Part shown: in pieces, positions 5,120 through 31,825 of the stretch
Layout of the letters: the number at the start of each line of letters is the position of its first letter
Numbering within the stretch: position 1 is the stretch's first letter
Source of the DNA: Acuticoccus yangtzensis
GTDB taxonomy: Bacteria; Pseudomonadota; Alphaproteobacteria; Rhizobiales; Amorphaceae
Direction: 5' to 3'
Length of the DNA stretch: 64,000 nucleotides
Assembly: GCF_001927245.1 (NCBI RefSeq)
Contig: NZ_MJUX01000003.1
Span: 372,001 to 436,000 of the forward strand
Notes under the pieces: generated by a model
What the model saw: the letters and a program-made list of their open reading frames with translations, nothing else
What the model was told of the DNA's origin: nothing
The model's database searches: none
Program-made: the position numbers and the translations under genes

Positions 5120-5179
5120 GTGCACAAACGCCATTCAAGACTGAACTCCGCAGCGCTCCCATGCGTTCAGGCTCCATAC

Positions 5180-5204
5180 ACGCCCCGTCATCTATCCGGG
5201 GCGT
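5180..5204 (+). promoter_or_regulatory. Leader hairpin upstream of the OmpA-family gene
   Basis: ACGCCCCG (5180-5187) and CGGGGCGT (5197-5204) form a perfect 8-bp stem with a 9-nt loop, ending about 10 bp before the ribosome binding site AGAAGGAAGG of the gene that starts at 5228. Its position suggests an mRNA leader structure; any regulatory role is inferred. Confidence 0.4.
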
Positions 5205-5227
5205 CATTCAGCCAGAAGGAAGGCAGT

Positions 5228-7669
5228 ATGCGTAAGGTCACAGGCTGGGCAATCGCCGCCGTCATGGCAGCGACCGTCCCGGCTTCGGCGCAGGTGGGGG
5301 TGAGAGCGCCCGCTGTCGACGCCGAACCGAGCATCAGCACCGTTCAGAACGCCCAGGAGCTTCAGAACGAGCGCCAGGAGTTCCGCCGGGAAAACCGGCA
5401 GGCGGAGCAGGAGATCCAGAACGAGCGCCAGGAGCGGGCCCGCGAAACCCGGCAGATGGACAACGAGCTGCGCAACGAGCGGCTCGAGTTCCGCGCCGAG
5501 GATCACACCCCGGCCGAGCGCCGCGCCGGTCAGGCGGAGATCCAGAACGAGCGCCGCGAACGGGCCGCAGAACAGCGCGCCGAGGACAACGAGCGCGCCA
5601 ACGAGCGCCAGGAGTTTCGCGGCGAGCAGCGCGCGACGCAGCAGGAAATGACAAACGAGCGTCGTGAGGCGGCCCGCGAGGACCGTGCGACGACGAACGA
5701 GCGGCGCAACGACGCCGCCGAGCAGCGCCAGCGCACCAACGAGCGGCGGGAGAAGGCACGCGACCAGCGCAGCAGCCTCCCGACCCGCTCCCCCGTCGAC
5801 CTTGCCCGGCTTTCGCCGGGCATTCTTCTGGCGCAGGCCCCCGTGGACCAGCGCCAGGAGGAGCGCCGCGCCAAGGCCCGCGAAGAGCGTCGCCAGCGCA
5901 ATGAGGCCCAGGGGAACCAAGGCAAGCAGGGGAACCAGGGCAAGCAGGGTAACCAGGGCAATCAGGGCAAGCCGCAGCGCGAGGCTCAGCAGCAGCAGCA
6001 GCGCCAGCAGAACCAGCAGCGCCAGGCGCAGGAACAGCGCCGCCAGGAGCAGCGCCAGCAGCAACAGCGCGACGCCCAGCAGCAGCGCCAGCAACAACAG
6101 CGTGAAGCGCAACAGCAGCGCCAGCGCGAGCAGCGTCAGGCCCAGGAACAGCGCCAACAGCGTCAGCGCGAGGCCCAGCGGCAGAACCAGGCTCAGCAGC
6201 AGGGCGAGCCGAGCCGCGACGCCCGCCGCGAGGAGTTGCTCCGCAACCGTCAAGAACGCGCCCGCGATGCGCAGGCCGATGGCCAGGAGCGCCGCCGCGA
6301 CGCGCAGGCCGCCCAGCAGCGCCGCCGCGAAGAGGCCCTTCGTGACCGTCAGAACGCCCGCCAGGACCCCGGCCCGAACGGGCGTGAGCGCCAGGACGCG
6401 CGTCAGGATCGCCGTCAGGATGCCGCCGACGATCGCCGTGACATTGTGCGGGACCGCCGCGATGACCGTCAGGACCGCCGTCAGGACGCGCGCTTCGACC
6501 GTCAGGAGGACCGTCAACGCCTGCGCCGCGAGCGCCGCGAGGACATCGCCCGCGCCCAGCGCCAGGAAAACCGGGACGACCTGCGCCAGCGCGCCGAGCG
6601 GGCCGAGCGCCGCGCCGACCGCCTGCGCGATCGCCGTGACGACCTGCGCCGCGAGCTGCGCCAGGAGCAGCGCGACGACCGCCGCGACTGGGTCCGCCGC
6701 GAGGAGCAGCGCCGCGACCGCTACCGCGATTGGGAGCGCAGCCGCCGCAACGAGACGCTGGAGCGCGCCGCCTGGGCCGGTCTCGGCGCCTTCGCCGGTG
6801 CCGCCATCGTCGCCTCCACCCAGGGCCGCACCACCTACGTGGTCGAAGGCCAGCCGCTGATCGTCGACGAATACCCGAGCCGCTTCGGCTGGCGCGCCGA
6901 CGCCTACGACGTGCGTGACCTCAACAACGGCTGGACAGAATCTGTGGTCGTTCGCGGCGACGGCTCGCGCATCGTCACTATCGTCGACAACAACGGCGTT
7001 CCGATCCGTCGCTACCGCGTCCTGCCGAACGGGCAGACGGTCACGCTGTTCAACAACCTGCCGACCTGGTGGGACGATCGCTCGAGCCTTGAGGTCAACA
7101 TCGGCCAGGTGAACGTCGGGATGCCCTATGACCGCTACGTGGTCGAGCCGTCGCGCGCGCCCGTCGAAGTGGTTTACGAGACGGTGACCGCCGAGCCGGT
7201 CCAGGAGCTCGACCGCGCCTATACGCTGAACCAGGTCCTCTACAACGAAGATCTGCGCGCTCTGATGCCGCGGATCGACGTCGACACGATCAACTTCCAG
7301 TCCGGCTCGGCCTACGTGGACGATTCGGAGATCGGCAACCTGGAGACGCTCGGCGTCGCGATGGAAGAGGCGATCTACGCGAACCCGTCCGAGGTCTTCC
7401 TCATCGAGGGCCATACGGATGCGGTCGGCTCGCCCGAATCGAACCTCGTCCTGTCCGACGCCCGCGCCGAGAGCGTGGCCGAGATCCTGACCGAGTACTT
7501 CGAGATCCCCCCGGAGAACATCGTCACCCAGGGCTTCGGCGAGCAGTACCTGAAGGAGCAGACGATGGGCGACAGCCGCACGAACCGCCGCGTCACGGTC
7601 CGCCGCATCACCCCGCTCCTCGCCACCGATGATCAGATCGCCGGCCTCGAAGACCAGAATTTCGACTGA
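5228..7669 (+). CDS. OmpA-family protein with long Arg/Gln-rich charged repeat region
   Basis: An 813-residue envelope protein. The ATG at 5228 follows a good ribosome binding site and opens a signal peptide MRKVTGWAIAAVMAATVPASAQ. Residues about 35-190 are degenerate NERxE/Q repeats, then comes a GNQGKQ stretch, then about 300 residues made almost only of Q, R, D, E and A (QQQR, DRRQD), likely helical or coiled-coil. A short hydrophobic segment (AAWAGLGAFAGAAIVAS) precedes a middle domain. The C-terminal about 120 residues are an OmpA-like peptidoglycan-binding domain, with INFQSGSAYV, IEGHTDAVGSPESNLVLSDARAESV and GFGEQYL. It probably tethers the envelope to peptidoglycan with the charged part spanning the periplasm. 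A strong terminator follows. Confidence 0.85.
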   Translation: MRKVTGWAIAAVMAATVPASAQVGVRAPAVDAEPSISTVQNAQELQNERQEFRRENRQAEQEIQNERQERARETRQMDNELRNERLEFRAEDHTPAERRAGQAEIQNERRERAAEQRAEDNERANERQEFRGEQRATQQEMTNERREAAREDRATTNERRNDAAEQRQRTNERREKARDQRSSLPTRSPVDLARLSPGILLAQAPVDQRQEERRAKAREERRQRNEAQGNQGKQGNQGKQGNQGNQGKPQREAQQQQQRQQNQQRQAQEQRRQEQRQQQQRDAQQQRQQQQREAQQQRQREQRQAQEQRQQRQREAQRQNQAQQQGEPSRDARREELLRNRQERARDAQADGQERRRDAQAAQQRRREEALRDRQNARQDPGPNGRERQDARQDRRQDAADDRRDIVRDRRDDRQDRRQDARFDRQEDRQRLRRERREDIARAQRQENRDDLRQRAERAERRADRLRDRRDDLRRELRQEQRDDRRDWVRREEQRRDRYRDWERSRRNETLERAAWAGLGAFAGAAIVASTQGRTTYVVEGQPLIVDEYPSRFGWRADAYDVRDLNNGWTESVVVRGDGSRIVTIVDNNGVPIRRYRVLPNGQTVTLFNNLPTWWDDRSSLEVNIGQVNVGMPYDRYVVEPSRAPVEVVYETVTAEPVQELDRAYTLNQVLYNEDLRALMPRIDVDTINFQSGSAYVDDSEIGNLETLGVAMEEAIYANPSEVFLIEGHTDAVGSPESNLVLSDARAESVAEILTEYFEIPPENIVTQGFGEQYLKEQTMGDSRTNRRVTVRRITPLLATDDQIAGLEDQNFD

Positions 7670-7687: not shown

Positions 7688-7716
7688 AAAAGGCCGCCCT
7701 CCGGGGCGGCCTTTTT
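7688..7716 (+). terminator. Rho-independent terminator of the OmpA-family gene
   Basis: A GC-rich stem, GGCCGCC (7692-7698) with GGCGGCC (7705-7711), extended by A-T pairs, has the 6-nt loop CTCCGG and is followed by TTTTTG. It lies about 20 bp after the stop codon. Confidence 0.9.
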
Positions 7717-8064
7717 GTTTGTGCCCACGGGCCAAGCTGTGGCGGCGGGCTCTGGTGACGGGTTGCGGCGGCGTTTTGGGTGACGGCGCCGGGTCTTCAT
7801 CCGCGGCAGCGCCCCGCGAGGCGTTCCCCCTCGCGCTCCCCCGGTTCGCCACCCGGCAGGGGTTCAGTGTGAGGGTGCGAAGAGCACCCTCCCTCTGAAA
7901 CCCCTGATCCAAGCGTGTCGAGGGCCGCAACGGCGTCAAGCGTCCGTCCTCGCCATGCTCGCACCCTCGAAGTCGAGGGCGCTGCGCGTGTCTCCGGGCG
8001 AACGCTTGACCCCGCCGCAGCCCTCCCAGCAGGGGTGCCGCGCCGGCTGCGCCGGAAACGGGGT
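7717..8064. other. Gene-free gap holding structured element copy A
   Basis: No credible coding frame is present between the OmpA-gene terminator and the 3' end of the minus-strand amidase. Most of the gap (7815-8025) is the structured element described separately. The flanks 7717-7814 and 8026-8064 are GC-rich, and I see nothing else recognisable in them. Confidence 0.6.
7815..8025 (-). ncRNA. Structured intergenic element, copy A (putative structured RNA or hairpin repeat)
   Basis: Read on the minus strand, this stretch folds into a nested stem (P1: 8025-8017 with 7928-7920; P2: 8010-8002 with 7943-7935; apical hairpin 7979-7964), then a two-part hairpin (7905-7895 with 7867-7858, enclosing 7891-7884 with 7878-7871 and loop UCUUC), a small hairpin with loop GUGGCGAA (7856-7841) and a hairpin with loop GGGAACG (7835-7815). 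The same architecture and the same conserved blocks occur at 29775-29976, with stems changed by compensation. G-U pairs that fit only the minus-strand transcript support this orientation. It lies 40 nt after the amidase stop codon on the same strand. Transcription is inferred, and the family is not recognised. Confidence 0.6.
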
Positions 8065-9435
8065 TCAGTCGCCGCGGACGATCGCCTCGATTGCCAGTGC
8101 CGCCGATAGAAGACGTTCGTCGTCGTTGCTCTTCGCGCTGATGAGGAAGCTCACCGGCAGCGGCGACGGGCTCGCCATCGGCATCGCCACACCCGGCAGG
8201 TTGAGGAAGTTGCCCGTCATCGTGTTGCGCAGCATCAGGAGATTGACCCGGCCGAACTCGTCCGGGTCCGCATCGAGCGGCGCGATCTCAGGTGCCACAC
8301 GAGGCACCGTCGGGCCGATGAGGAAGGCGTCCTCCATGTCGGCCGCGATCTGCGCCGAGAGCTTGGCGCGCATCCGCTGGTTCATCAGAACGTCCTGCGC
8401 GGTCATGGTCTTGCCGCGAAGGATGCGGGCGACCACCCGGCCGTCCATCTCCTCCGCGTCGGCGCTCTCCATCCGCTCCTGGTGGTAGAAGTAGGACTCC
8501 GCGTTGGCGAGCGTGCCGTGGTCCGCCATCACCCGCGCCGCCTCGCCGATCTGCGGCACCGTGCGCGTTTCCACCGTCACGCCCGCCTTCTCCAGCCGCT
8601 TCACCGCCTGTTCGAAGGCGTCCGTTACCGCGTCCTCGCAGTCGTCCAGCCACAGCGTTTCGGAGAGGATGAGGCGCATCCCGGCGATGTGGCCGCGGGC
8701 GACCGTGGGCGCCGTGCCGCGCAGCGCCGCGTCGAGGTGGACGCAGTCCTCCACCGTGCGGGCGAGGGGACCCACCGTGTCGAGGGTGAAGGAAAGCGGC
8801 GTCGCGCCCTCGGTCGAGATGCGGCCCTCCGACGATTTGTAGCCGACGATGCCGTTCACCGCCGCAGGGATGCGCACCGAGCCGCCGGTGTCGGACCCGA
8901 TTGCCGCCGTCGCGAGGCCGGACGCCACCGCAACCGCCGAGCCGGACGACGACCCGCCCGGAATGCGCGGCGTCTCCTTGTCGTGCGGATTGGCGGGGGT
9001 GCCATAATGGGGGTTGAGGCCGAGGCCGGAGAAGGCGAACTCCGTCATGTTCACCTTGCCGAGCGCCACCATGCCCGCCGCGGCGAGGTGGGCGACGACG
9101 GGGCAATCGTCCTCCGCGGGGCTGGCGTTCCGCCACAGGGCGGACCCCGCGGTCGTCACCTCGCCCGACATGTCGAACAGGTCCTTCCAGGCGATCGACA
9201 CGCCGTCGAGGCCGGAGGCGGGGCGGCCGGCATCGTAGCGGGCCTTGGCGGAGCGGGCCTCGCGGCGGGCGCGCTCTGCGGTCACCGTCAGATAAACCGC
9301 GTCGCTCTGGGCGGCGGCGATGCGGTCCAGCAGGACCTCCGTCACCGCGATGGGGTCGGCCTCACCGGCGAGGTAGGCACGGGCGAGGGGGACGGCCGCG
9401 AGATCGGCGGCGCGTTCGGGGGCGAGGTCTGTCAT
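8065..9435 (-). CDS. Amidase (amidase signature family)
   Basis: A 456-residue member of the GatA/AtzF-type amidase signature family, hydrolysing a carboxamide to acid and ammonia in the cytoplasm. The Ser-cisSer-Lys triad is visible as Lys84 in SIAWKDLFD and the serines in GGSSSGSA and GSDTGGSVRIP. It lies 86 bp downstream of the M20 hydrolase on the same strand, so the two probably form a transcript. No gatC or gatB is nearby, which argues against a role in tRNA amidation. The substrate is unknown; together with the carbamoylase-type neighbour a ureide, hydantoin or N-carbamoyl catabolic role is plausible. Confidence 0.88.
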   Translation of the reverse strand: MTDLAPERAADLAAVPLARAYLAGEADPIAVTEVLLDRIAAAQSDAVYLTVTAERARREARSAKARYDAGRPASGLDGVSIAWKDLFDMSGEVTTAGSALWRNASPAEDDCPVVAHLAAAGMVALGKVNMTEFAFSGLGLNPHYGTPANPHDKETPRIPGGSSSGSAVAVASGLATAAIGSDTGGSVRIPAAVNGIVGYKSSEGRISTEGATPLSFTLDTVGPLARTVEDCVHLDAALRGTAPTVARGHIAGMRLILSETLWLDDCEDAVTDAFEQAVKRLEKAGVTVETRTVPQIGEAARVMADHGTLANAESYFYHQERMESADAEEMDGRVVARILRGKTMTAQDVLMNQRMRAKLSAQIAADMEDAFLIGPTVPRVAPEIAPLDADPDEFGRVNLLMLRNTMTGNFLNLPGVAMPMASPSPLPVSFLISAKSNDDERLLSAALAIEAIVRGD

Positions 9436-28563: not shown

Positions 28564-29640
28564 TCAGAGCGGCCCGGCGATGCGCTCGGCCCGCCGCGAA
28601 AGGCCAGTCAGAAGTTCGTAGCCGATGGTGCCCGCGTGGGCCGCGACCCGGTCCACCGGAACGTTGGGGCCGATCACCTCCACGAAGTCGCCGCGCCGGG
28701 CGCCTGTGCCGGTCACGTCCACGGCGATGAGGTCCATGGAGACGCGGCCGAGGAGGTGGGCGGGCTGGCCGTTCACGAAGGCCGGGGCGCCCTTCACCAT
28801 GTCCGAGCCGCCGGATTGGCGGATATAGCCGTCCGCATAGCCGAGCGAGATGATGGCGATCTCGGTCGGGCGCTTCACCGTCTCGGCGGCGCCGTAGCCT
28901 ACGGTCTCGCCCGGCACGACCTTGCGCACCTGGATGATCCTCGCCTCCAGCCGCGCCGCCGGCTCCAAGGTGCCCGCCCCCTCGGCCGATGCGCCGCCAT
29001 AAAGGGCGATTCCGGGGCGCACCAGGTCGTAGTGGGCCTGAGGGCGGGTGAGGATCGCGGCGGAGTTGGCGAACGTGGCCGGGACGTCCGCGAAGGCGCG
29101 GCGCACGGTGGCGAAGGCGGCCTCCTGGGCGGTGTTGAGCGAATGGTCCGGCACATCGGCACAGGCGAAGTGGCTGGCGAGGAGGCACGGGCGCGGACCG
29201 TCATAGGCAAGCGCCTCGGTGACATCGAGGCCGAGCCTGTTCATGCCGGTGTCGACGTTGAGGGCGAAGGGCGCATCGGCGGGCCAGTCCGCCACCGCCT
29301 CCAGCGAGGAGTGGAAGGGGCGCAGGTTGGCGGCGAGCGCCGCGGCCGTGTCGAACACGCCGTTCAGGATGTAGATGTCCACGTCCGGCAGCAGCGCGCG
29401 GAGCCTCTGCCCCTCGCCGAGCAGCGCGACGAAGAAGGTGCGGCAGCCCGCGGCGGCGAGCTTGGGGGCGACCACGTCGATCCCATGCCCATAGGCGTCG
29501 GCCTTGACCACTGCGCCGGCGGTGGCGCCGGTGCGGCTCTTGATCGTTTCCCAGTTGCGCACGATGGCGGCGGGGTCGATCGTCAAGCGCGCGGCTGCGG
29601 TGGTCGAAGCAGAGACGGTGGTGGCGAGACTGGCTGACAT
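28564..29640 (-). CDS. alr: Alanine racemase
   Basis: This 358-residue PLP enzyme makes D-alanine for peptidoglycan. The PLP lysine is Lys46 in AVVKADAYGHG, and the second catalytic base Tyr is within ETVGYGAAETV; the fold-III signature VDTGMNRLGL and RPGIALYGG are also present. I chose the ATG at 29640 (MSASLATTVSAS), since the frame upstream is Arg-rich and lacks homology. The upstream gap holds element copy B, read in the opposite direction. Confidence 0.96.
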   Translation of the reverse strand: MSASLATTVSASTTAAARLTIDPAAIVRNWETIKSRTGATAGAVVKADAYGHGIDVVAPKLAAAGCRTFFVALLGEGQRLRALLPDVDIYILNGVFDTAAALAANLRPFHSSLEAVADWPADAPFALNVDTGMNRLGLDVTEALAYDGPRPCLLASHFACADVPDHSLNTAQEAAFATVRRAFADVPATFANSAAILTRPQAHYDLVRPGIALYGGASAEGAGTLEPAARLEARIIQVRKVVPGETVGYGAAETVKRPTEIAIISLGYADGYIRQSGGSDMVKGAPAFVNGQPAHLLGRVSMDLIAVDVTGTGARRGDFVEVIGPNVPVDRVAAHAGTIGYELLTGLSRRAERIAGPL

Positions 29641-30024
29641 GCCGATTAAGCTAACCGAGCCTGCGCCTGCGGAGAACCGCCGCCGACGCATCAATGGCGT
29701 GCAGCGATGAGAGGACGCGTGCCGACTACGCGGGCGCCCTTCACCGCTTCTTGTTCCGACCATCCAAAGTCTTGGAGGATCGTGGCGGGGTCAAGCGATC
29801 GCCCGGACCCACGCGCAGGCGCCCCCTCTTGAGGGGGCGGCGAGCATGGGGAGGACGGTCGCTTGATGCCGTCACGATCCTTCTGAGCCTTGGTGCAGCC
29901 TTCAATCCTCTTCCGGATTGAAGGCCTGCCCGCTGGCGAAGCGGAGAGGAGCGCGAGGAGGGGAACTCCTCCTCGCTGCAGCGGTCCCGCACGGGATGCG
30001 CCGCCGCTCCCACTTGGCGGTGCC
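29641..30024. other. Gene-free gap between alr and the gene at 30025, holding structured element copy B
   Basis: Both flanking genes lie on the minus strand. No credible coding frame is present. The middle (29775-29976) is the structured element; 29641-29774 should contain the alr promoter, but I see no clear -35/-10 pair; 29977-30024 is GC-rich with nothing recognisable. Confidence 0.6.
29775..29976 (+). ncRNA. Structured intergenic element, copy B (putative structured RNA or hairpin repeat)
   Basis: On the plus strand the element folds as P1 (29776-29784 with 29873-29881), P2 (29791-29798 with 29859-29866), an apical hairpin (29820-29839), a perfect 11-bp hairpin with loop UCUUCC (29898-29925), a CCGC/GCGG hairpin with loop UGGCGAA (29930-29944) and a perfect 9-bp hairpin with loop GGAACU (29953-29976). 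Blocks identical to copy A (7815-8025) include GGCGGGGTCAAGCG, TCGCCCGGA, CACGCGCAG, GCGAGCATGG and GAGGACGG. P1 differs from copy A at five of nine pairs, yet pairing is kept. The element runs antisense to the neighbouring genes. Expression is unproven and the family is unknown to me. Confidence 0.6.
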
Positions 30025-30345
30025 TCAATCGTTGGTGATCGCCTCGAAGCGGCGGATCATCTCGGCCAGGAAGGCCAGCTCCTTGGCACCGAGCCGCTTC
30101 TCGATCGTCGGAATATCGCCCTCGGTCTCCGGCGTCTCGCCGCGCTTCATCGGCGGCAGGCGCTTCAACTCCGGCGTTTCGTCCAGCTTGGAGCGCTGCA
30201 CCACGACTTCGAGGTTGGCGCGCTCCACGAGGCCGGTGACGCGCAGCCGCTCCAATTCGGCCGCGAGCAGCTTCGCCTCGCCCGACAGGGTGACGGTGGC
30301 GTGGACGTAGCCGACGGGAACGGCGTCTTTGTCGTAATCGGCCAT
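30025..30345 (-). CDS. Conserved-looking hypothetical protein
   Basis: A 106-residue soluble protein beginning MADYDKDAVPVGYVHATVTLSGEA, with a central helix-rich charged part (KLLAAELERLRVTGLVERANLEVV) and a C-terminal LGAKELAFLAEMIRRFEAI. I do not recognise the family. The ATG at 30345 lies seven bases after the dnaB stop codon, so it is probably cotranscribed with dnaB. No signal peptide or membrane segment is present. Strong codon bias like its neighbours supports it as a real gene. Confidence 0.65.
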   Translation of the reverse strand: MADYDKDAVPVGYVHATVTLSGEAKLLAAELERLRVTGLVERANLEVVVQRSKLDETPELKRLPPMKRGETPETEGDIPTIEKRLGAKELAFLAEMIRRFEAITND

Positions 30346-30352
30346 GTGCCTC

Positions 30353-31825
30353 CTACTCGTAGCTGACTGCGGTCCCGTGCTCGGGCGCAAGGTTGCCGAA
30401 GCGGGTCAACTCCGCCTCGAACTGGAGCTTCACCGTGCCGGTCGGACCGTGACGCTGCTTGGCCACGATCACCTCGGCAACGCCGTGGCACGCCTCCATC
30501 TTGGCCTCCCACTCGAAGAATTCCTGACTGCCTTCCGGCGGCTTGCGGGCCTGCAGGTAATATTCCTCGCGGTAGACGAAGAGGACGACGTCGGCGTCCT
30601 GCTCGATGGAGCCCGATTCGCGAAGGTCCGCAAGTTGCGGGCGCTTGTCGTCGCGGTTTTCCACCTGCCGCGAGAGCTGGGAGAGGGCGATGATCGGCAC
30701 CTCGAGCTCCTTCGCCAGCGCCTTCAGCCCGGTGGTGATCTCGGTGATCTCGTTCACGCGCGACGCGCCCGGTTTGCCCGAGCCGGACAGGAGCTGCAGA
30801 TAGTCGACGATGAGGAGGTCGAGCCCCTTCTGCCGCTTCAGCCGCCGCGCGCGGGCCGCCAGCGCGCCGATGGAGATGCCGCCGGTCTGGTCGATGAAGA
30901 AGGGCAGCGTCTGCATCGCCGTCGCGGCGCCCACGAGGTCCTGGAACTGGTGTTCCTCGAATGCGCCGCGGCGGATCAGCGAGGACGAGATACCCGACTG
31001 CTCGGCGAGGATACGGGTGGCGAGCTGCTCGGCACTCATTTCCAGGCTGAAGAAGCCGACGATGCCGCCGTCCAGCGTCTTGTTCACCCCGTTCTCGAGG
31101 CCCGCCCGGTAGGCCCGCGCGACCGCGAAGCCGATGTTGGTGACGAGCGAGGTCTTGCCCATGGCCGGACGCCCGGCAAGCACCACGAGGTCGGAGCGCT
31201 GCAGGCCGCCCATCAGCCTGTCGAGGTCGGTGAGGTGGGTGGCGATGCCGGACAAGGCGCCGGCGCGGTGGAAGGCGGCGTCCGCCATCTCGACCGATGC
31301 GGTCAGCGCGTCCGAGAAGGTGACGAAGCCCTGGCTCGCCGCGCCGCCTTCCGCGAGACCGTAAAGCCGCCGCTCGACACCCTCGATCTGCGCGCGCGGC
31401 GTCATGTCAGGCGTCGCGTCGTAGGACTCGTTGACGAGGTCTTCGCCGATGGTGATCAGCTCGCGCCTCATCGCGAGGTCGAAGAGGTTCCGCCCGTAGT
31501 CCTCGGCGTTGATGATCGTCGTCGCGTTGGCGGCGAGGCGCGTGAGGTACTCCACCGGGGCGAGATCGGCGAGCGGCTGGTCGGCGGGCAGGAAGGTCTT
31601 CACCGTCGACGGCGTCGCCACCTTGCCGGAGCGGATCAGCTTGGTGATCAGGTCGTAGATGCGCCGGTGCGGCTCGATGAAGAAGTGGTCCGTCTTCAGA
31701 AAGTCCGAGACGCGGTAGAAGGCCTCGTTGTTGACGAGGATCAGCCCGAGCAATTGCTGCTCGATCTCGATGTTGTGGGGCGCTTGCCGAATTTCGAGCG
31801 CGGTGTGATCGAGCGGCTGGTTCAT
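30353..31825 (-). CDS. dnaB: Replicative DNA helicase
   Basis: This 490-residue hexameric 5'-3' helicase unwinds DNA at the replication fork. The N-terminal domain starts NIEIEQQLLGLILVNNEAFYRV; the RecA-like domain carries Walker A LAGRPAMGKTSLVTNIG, Walker B LLIVDYLQLL and the arginine-finger segment LSQLSRQVENRDDKRPQLADLRESGSIEQ in three blocks. I chose the ATG at 31825 because GGGAG precedes it; the frame extends 26 codons upstream without homology. No intein is present. Confidence 0.97.
   Translation of the reverse strand: MNQPLDHTALEIRQAPHNIEIEQQLLGLILVNNEAFYRVSDFLKTDHFFIEPHRRIYDLITKLIRSGKVATPSTVKTFLPADQPLADLAPVEYLTRLAANATTIINAEDYGRNLFDLAMRRELITIGEDLVNESYDATPDMTPRAQIEGVERRLYGLAEGGAASQGFVTFSDALTASVEMADAAFHRAGALSGIATHLTDLDRLMGGLQRSDLVVLAGRPAMGKTSLVTNIGFAVARAYRAGLENGVNKTLDGGIVGFFSLEMSAEQLATRILAEQSGISSSLIRRGAFEEHQFQDLVGAATAMQTLPFFIDQTGGISIGALAARARRLKRQKGLDLLIVDYLQLLSGSGKPGASRVNEITEITTGLKALAKELEVPIIALSQLSRQVENRDDKRPQLADLRESGSIEQDADVVLFVYREEYYLQARKPPEGSQEFFEWEAKMEACHGVAEVIVAKQRHGPTGTVKLQFEAELTRFGNLAPEHGTAVSYE

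Follow-up and report, generated by a model that had tools for sequence, protein, structure and literature searches.

Two stretches of a 64,000-nucleotide window of Acuticoccus yangtzensis DNA (contig NZ_MJUX01000003.1, positions 372,001 to 436,000; referred to below as the window), copies A and B, are members of a dispersed family of non-coding folded repeats. The element is 190–280 nt long, is without a protein of its own and occurs in about forty copies in the genome, mostly between convergent gene ends. It has the appearance of a family of small mobile repeats that has not been recorded before, with shape conserved more than sequence. Sequence is what usually identifies small interspersed repeats; the old copies of this element keep 97% of a 41-pair stem, which makes it an unusually clear case in which selection sees the shape of one strand. 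With about forty natural copies per genome, the family also offers a test bed for movement without a Y1 transposase or reverse transcriptase and lets one ask about effects at convergent gene ends.

A dispersed family in one genome

With copy A as the query, blastn returned 41 matches, itself included, in the A. yangtzensis assembly (5.04 Mb in 29 contigs). A covariance model of the first stem-loop, R1, gave 63 rows, which fall at 37 places. Of these places, 36 score E ≤ 5.3e-9 and one is weak (E 0.004); the remaining 26 rows are opposite-strand matches at places already counted. The exact pattern of the 3' domain has 39 matches in the genome, and iterated nhmmer on the window and 34 loci gave 35 at E ≤ 1e-4, leaving out a row at E 7.7e-4 that is the reverse strand of a copy. 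A preliminary description of the window had presented A and B as a pair of covarying structured elements. Both copies are real, their identity blocks are present in register and their coordinates were correct within ~10 bases, but the pair is two of about forty copies. It had also allowed that the covariation would be chance if further copies lost the pairings, or if there were none and the identity blocks disappeared on proper alignment; the 41 blastn matches and the 97.0% of pair cells kept across copies speak for a structured, hairpin-forming repeat whose stems covary, as do the covariance model hits.

The comparison with Rfam that had been proposed yielded no family, with 0 matches at the gathering cut-off over the whole window. 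Searching five loci down to E 1 brought up only sub-threshold microRNA and STnc320 matches, far below their cut-offs, and a known RNA family was accordingly rejected as the identity of the element. Exact strings of the core were found in no paper of the open-access library searched, and the literature matches listed include related repeat families but not this one.

Anatomy of the fold

In the aligned copies, the first long stem-loop (P1) opens with about GAAGGAnnGnGGCGGGGTCAAG and ends with CTTGACGCCGTCnCGnTCCTTC. The first stem drawn in the preliminary description is real but longer than stated there, with 29 pairs below two inner helices. P1 contains two conserved internal loops and is capped by a tip hairpin that is one of several unrelated sequences; in three copies (L026, L036 and L038) it is shorter. 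Read on the sequences, the internal loops are of one type, with C-GNA-G on the 5' side opposite C-GA-G on the 3' side, and the two loop units lie ~6 bp apart with a C.A mismatch. GNA/GA arrangements form sheared G.A pairs. P1 is followed by a linker and then by hairpins P3, P4 and P5, in that order. P3 sits between CAGG and CCTG, and its entire sequence differs from type to type. P4 is a 4-bp hairpin with the loop GGCGA, replaced by GCCGA or CCCGA in some relatives, and P5 is a GC-rich hairpin with the loop GGAAC that lies 3' of a constant GGAGCGCGAGG. The unpaired blocks CACGCGCAG, GCGAGCATGG, GGCGA and GGAAC are conserved in nearly all copies.

Table 1. Features of copies A and B in window coordinates, and loci carrying the nested insert
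Feature	Position	Strand	Remarks
Copy A, whole element	7806..8028	-	5' end at 8028
Copy A, flanking convergent ORFs	5120-7669 and 8065-9435	+ and -	
Copy A, P1, first long stem-loop	7915..8028	-	R1 103.6 bits; arms 7997-8026 and 7920-7954
Copy A, conserved 5' internal-loop block CACGCGCAG	7982..7990	-	
Copy A, variable P1 tip hairpin	7964..7981	-	
Copy A, conserved 3' internal-loop block GCGAGCATGG	7953..7962	-	
Copy A, exchangeable hairpin P3	7857..7906	-	between CAGG and CCTG
Copy A, hairpin P4	7841..7856	-	loop GGCGA
Copy A, hairpin P5	7816..7834	-	loop sequence GGAAC
Copy B, whole element	29772..29982	+	
Copy B, two flanking genes	28564-29637 and 30025-30366	-	start of the first behind, stop of the second ahead
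Copy B, P1, first long stem-loop	29772..29887	+	R1 117.2 bits; arms 29774-29803 and 29848-29883
Copy B, conserved 5' internal-loop block CACGCGCAG	29810..29818	+	
Copy B, variable P1 tip hairpin	29819..29839	+	
Copy B, conserved 3' internal-loop block GCGAGCATGG	29840..29849	+	
Copy B, exchangeable hairpin P3	29896..29928	+	sequence type unrelated to P3 of copy A
Copy B, hairpin P4	29929..29944	+	loop GGCGA; copy B absent from alignment A6
Copy B, hairpin P5	29953..29976	+	loop sequence GGAAC; 3'-domain pattern match
Nested insert inside P4	L016, L024, L029, L034, L036, L041		

Compensatory change and strand asymmetry

The covariation noticed between A and B holds and extends to 32 copies. Across the 41 pairs of P1, 97.0% of 1312 cells are paired, as opposed to 81.7% in shuffles, which leave the relatedness of the copies in. 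Changes on both sides affect 26 of the 41 pairs (16.3 in shuffles) and 184 cells (48.9 in shuffles), and the covariation score is 0.438 compared with 0.145; none of 500 shuffles reaches any of these values. When the partners are slid by one to three columns, a control that is somewhat favoured by the derivation of the structure from the same copies, at most 44.1% of cells are paired and the score does not exceed 0.083. For P4, aligned over 47 sequences from this genome and the genus, 92.0% of 188 cells are paired (68.7% shuffled), with 52 changed cells (14.1 shuffled) and a score of 0.784 (0.289 shuffled, at most 0.147 slid); the number of P4 pairs with changes on both sides, 3 versus 3.1 in shuffles, shows no excess. 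P3 folds below the mean of letter shuffles in 32 of 32 copies.

The P1 cells comprise 928 G-C, 261 A-U, 84 G-U and 4 A-C combinations, and the excess of G-U over A-C indicates that one strand folds. The mean folding energy of P1 is −84.2 kcal/mol on the element strand versus −73.9 kcal/mol on the complement, and the element strand is the lower in 30 of 32 copies. A cruciform would leave the strands indistinguishable, whereas an RNA or one strand of DNA would make them distinguishable. The element is thus a structured single strand, RNA or single-stranded DNA, with compensatory change beyond both the shuffle and the slide controls and a clear strand asymmetry. The strand-specific folding read earlier from the G-U pairs is supported; they may point to an RNA, but the same signature is expected from one strand of single-stranded DNA, and an RNA role is possible.

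Genomic position and possible RNA roles

The copies are distributed very unevenly among kinds of intergenic gap: the 3' pattern occurs in 27 of 91 gaps between convergent genes, in 11 of 436 tandem gaps and in none of 90 divergent ones (Fisher p 3e-16). These counts cover 0.78 Mb of A. yangtzensis sequence around copies, the window included, with genes called by a home-made codon-usage caller; the choice of sample inflates the rate per gap and does not explain the contrast among gap kinds. Relative to their neighbours, 26 of 35 copies have a same-strand gene upstream and an opposite-strand gene downstream, five lie between two opposite-strand and four between two same-strand genes, and none is in a divergent arrangement. 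Of the 35, 30 stand downstream of a same-strand gene, a median of 31.5 nt past its stop, and the stop of the opposite gene downstream lies a median of 57 nt from the end of the model (31 copies). Among the neighbouring proteins, surveyed for the two window copies and 33 further loci of this genome against 18 loci of relatives (two of which are one place repeated), no family recurs except ABC transporters.

One explanation for this placement is a functional RNA at the 3' end of transcripts: every copy would be transcribed as the tail of the gene upstream and would stop or process transcripts and insulate converging genes, with its stems under selection for that purpose. The 27 of 38 element-bearing gaps that are convergent, the position just past same-strand stops, the G-U asymmetry and the intactness of the stems despite the age of the copies all agree with such a role. 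Against it, simple scans found no T-tailed terminator around A and B, orientation in tandem gaps is unbiased (four same/same, five opposite/opposite), the 3' pattern is missing from 64 of the 91 convergent gaps, and some copies (L421, L422 and L425) are decayed. Convergent gaps also gather small parasitic repeats: in Streptococcus pneumoniae an excess in such gaps is taken to indicate that the elements are mobile and parasitic (PMC3049150). As the identity of the element we regard a 3'-end RNA as rather unlikely; a 3'-end role on top of mobility is possible.

The conserved unpaired blocks might instead belong to a multi-copy small RNA acting in trans or to an RNA sponge. We consider this very unlikely, given the dozens of divergent copies, the lack of an Rfam family at gathering and the absence of a sigma-70-like promoter at A or B in a simple scan, other promoter types being outside its reach.

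A T-tailed inverted repeat at 7688–7718, behind the 5120–7669 ORF, was spotted by eye and is missing from the list of the simple scan.

Mosaic structure and age

Modules are exchanged among the copies, with at least four P3 types and several P1 tips occurring in different combinations. Among 25 insert-free copies no pair exceeds a full-length identity of 0.872 (median 0.671, gaps counted), and therefore no recent burst of the element is seen. For P1 by itself, three of 496 pairs in 32 copies exceed 0.9. A nested insert of two hairpins interrupts P4 in six copies, and a related insert does so in two others. The nested repeat has 16 matches in the genome, several of them 91–100% identical, and a single weak match in the seven other genus genomes; it is younger than the element that it interrupts.

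The nested two-hairpin repeat is ~74 nt long and is also present in standalone or decayed form in L421–L428. The nearly alike loci L427 (C12:18650-19300) and L428 (C22:558850-559500) of the same genome, as well as L424, hold a related mosaic with a different P1 (GTCAAGGA...TCCTTGAC), in which the two-hairpin module is present and the GGAGCGCGAGG domain absent.

Probable mobility and the enzymes searched for

Orthologous regions of relatives contain empty sites. The genes flanking copy A were found together in one stretch in G002–G005, and those flanking copy B in G002, G003, G005 and G007. Copy B is absent from the aligned gap of G003 and G005, and copy A from that of G004, where there is only a T-tailed hairpin. 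On ten stretches of the two regions, R1 had no hit below E 0.1, and the 3' pattern did not occur. At the 3' end of one gene, whose proteins are 80.6% identical, both G006 and G007 carry the element in opposite orientations, which therefore represent independent insertions. At least one site, in turn, looks inherited, since L047 of G005 and the decayed remnant L425 of the A. yangtzensis genome lie downstream of the same ABC-transporter gene.

The usual marks of a transposed unit were searched for at the ends. No offset pair stands out as a target-site duplication in 32 copies (k = 3, 4, 5, 6 and 8), which are old and have an uncertain 3' boundary. By reading, no terminal inverted repeats were seen in the flank alignment, the 5' end being the foot of P1 and the 3' end P5 followed by a weakly conserved tail. 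A reverse transcriptase (PF00078) was found in none of the eight genus genomes at E ≤ 0.001, with the control positive in 3 of 14 genomes, and mobilisation of a retroelement or group II intron derivative was rejected on these grounds. The only recurrent neighbours being ABC transporters, a hidden transposase among the adjacent genes was likewise dismissed.

Hairpins, a one-strand fold and intergenic dispersal are also what would be expected of paired palindromes moved through single-stranded DNA by a Y1 tyrosine transposase, as in the REPIN/RAYT system. The transposase domain PF01797, however, is absent from the A. yangtzensis genome and from 8 of 8 genus genomes (89–98% complete) at E ≤ 0.01, with the control positive in 6 of 14. 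The element is ~10 times the size of a REP and is not two inverted REPs, and its replication-strand bias is not significant (23 of 38 copies, p 0.26; skew difference p 0.053). REPIN/RAYT mobilisation is highly improbable.

The element is dispersed and non-coding, exchanges modules, has empty sites in relatives and avoids promoter gaps. All of this fits a small mobile repeat, and we favour the view that it is probably a non-autonomous mosaic one, resembling BOX, MITE and REPIN elements in its working and failing those of their defining features that were tested. An enzyme acting in trans would recognise the folded strand and copy the element to new places. The copies may settle 3' of genes because insertion is tolerated there, and selection may keep the stems because the element has to be recognised, or because the transcribed fold has a role at the 3' end. 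Stems that have stayed whole in old copies speak against a mobile repeat, being more than a purely parasitic one requires. So do the missing terminal repeats, the lack of a recent burst, the site that looks inherited and the non-significant replication-strand bias, such a bias being expected of single-strand transposition. This fidelity of the fold, along with the absence of the usual ends and the usual enzymes, is what sets the element apart.

Relation to known repeat families

One close likeness is to BOX, RUP and SPRITE of S. pneumoniae, described as having folded transcripts and being over-represented between convergent genes, with BOX being modular and having exchangeable inner units (PMC3049150). 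These are likewise small non-coding interspersed repeats, and the modularity of BOX and the convergent-gap excess are shared with the element. Compared by description, BOX and RUP differ in having IS-like terminal repeats (PMC3049150), of which none was seen here; the host of the element is a GC-rich alphaproteobacterium, and compensatory change among its copies has been measured. MITEs are similarly short, non-coding and dispersed, and the element is missing at orthologous sites of relatives as they are, but it lacks terminal inverted repeats. REPINs, described as paired short palindromes linked to a Y1 transposase (PMC3116915), resemble it as dispersed extragenic non-autonomous hairpins and differ in the enzyme that is absent from the genus.

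Among repeats described from bacteria of the same class, the CIR repeats of Caulobacter and Brucella are also intergenic, fold into arms and are without typical terminal inverted repeats. One loop of the CIRs contains a conserved methylation motif, GANTC (PMC2229807), whereas GANTC occurs in none of the element copies (35 nhmmer rows, E ≤ 1e-4). ERIC elements, treated in the same source, are reported to have an orientation-dependent effect on mRNA stability (PMC2229807). RIME, the Rhizobium-specific intergenic mosaic element named in PMC2245857, is an alphaproteobacterial intergenic mosaic repeat too, a likeness drawn from its name.

Distribution beyond the genome

Among 61 relatives, R1 matches all eight Acuticoccus genomes but no other member of the order (53 genomes). 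The 3' pattern has between 2 and 39 matches per genus genome and at most one, with chance-like letters, in any other. A search of 385 genomes of the class with R1, which scored nine candidates per genome, is a weak negative, since the A. yangtzensis genome itself gave only nine; the exact core pattern was found in one of the 385, A. yangtzensis. Over 84,980 species the core pattern occurs in at least 108 stretches, and R1 applied to 80 of these scored at least 32 loci at E ≤ 1e-4, at least 24 of them outside the genus. These loci had been pre-selected by their core, and the pairing of the outer arms served as an extra test. Outside the genus, 7 of 93 loci scored above every one of 40 shuffles and of 40 swapped pairings, so that many of the 93, above all the actinobacterial ones, look like chance; the test also fails loci held to be real, namely the Gluconobacter loci and L134 of Paramagnetospirillum marisnigri, in which core and 3' domain are both present. 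Loci in Polyangium, Sorangium and Sandaracinaceae score with R1, some of them with two or three stacked loop units, and are either homologous or convergent.

In viral collections the core pattern occurs in seven stretches, none of which scores below E 0.03 with R1; the 3' pattern occurs in at least 120, its variable gap letting in chance matches. Phage records gave no blastn match. Copy B matched one of 72,556 plasmid records by blastn, an Agrobacterium fabrum plasmid, over 36% of the query. A Gluconobacter query found 34 places in 28 of the 72,556 records, from Gluconobacter, Komagataeibacter, Kozakia, Acetobacter, Neokomagataea, Novacetimonas and one Agrobacterium. Related cores thus occur sporadically elsewhere, including on plasmids of acetic acid bacteria.

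In three of six plasmid regions viewed, one of them an array of five 440-bp tandem units, the related core adjoins a partition gene of ParA, ParB or RepA type. This neighbourhood would suit a DNA-binding or segregation site, similar to a centromere or partition site, that has spread on the chromosome. Such an origin is nevertheless highly improbable: the fold is strand-specific, which binding to a duplex does not need, the chromosomal copies are scattered, and the other three plasmid regions have no adjacent partition gene, a ParA gene standing ~2 kb off in one.

Returning to the mobile repeat, a bolder formulation, which we think unlikely, would define it by a strand-specific multi-helix fold instead of terminal repeats. 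A protein would read the stacked C-GNA-G/C-GA-G loops on a single strand of RNA or DNA, copying would be based on neither a Y1 enzyme nor a reverse transcriptase, and the same fold would have been taken up beside partition genes of alphaproteobacterial plasmids and would recur in some Polyangia, there with its loop units stacked in twos or threes.

Several of these distant loci have features of their own. In L143 and L085 of Polyangium, the stems contain repeated 10-nt/9-nt loop units in equal number on both arms. The tandem units of L231 (1168–3371; Gluconobacter oxydans H24 plasmid, CP003927.1) are 99% alike, each has a core-like hairpin, and the array lies directly before the ParA-type gene; the small hypothetical proteins annotated in the units may be spurious. 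On plasmids pGOX1 and pGOX2 of G. oxydans 621H (L229 and L230), the hairpin is preceded by a common cassette of genes for a MucR-type regulator, a PAPS-reductase-family protein and a hypothetical protein.
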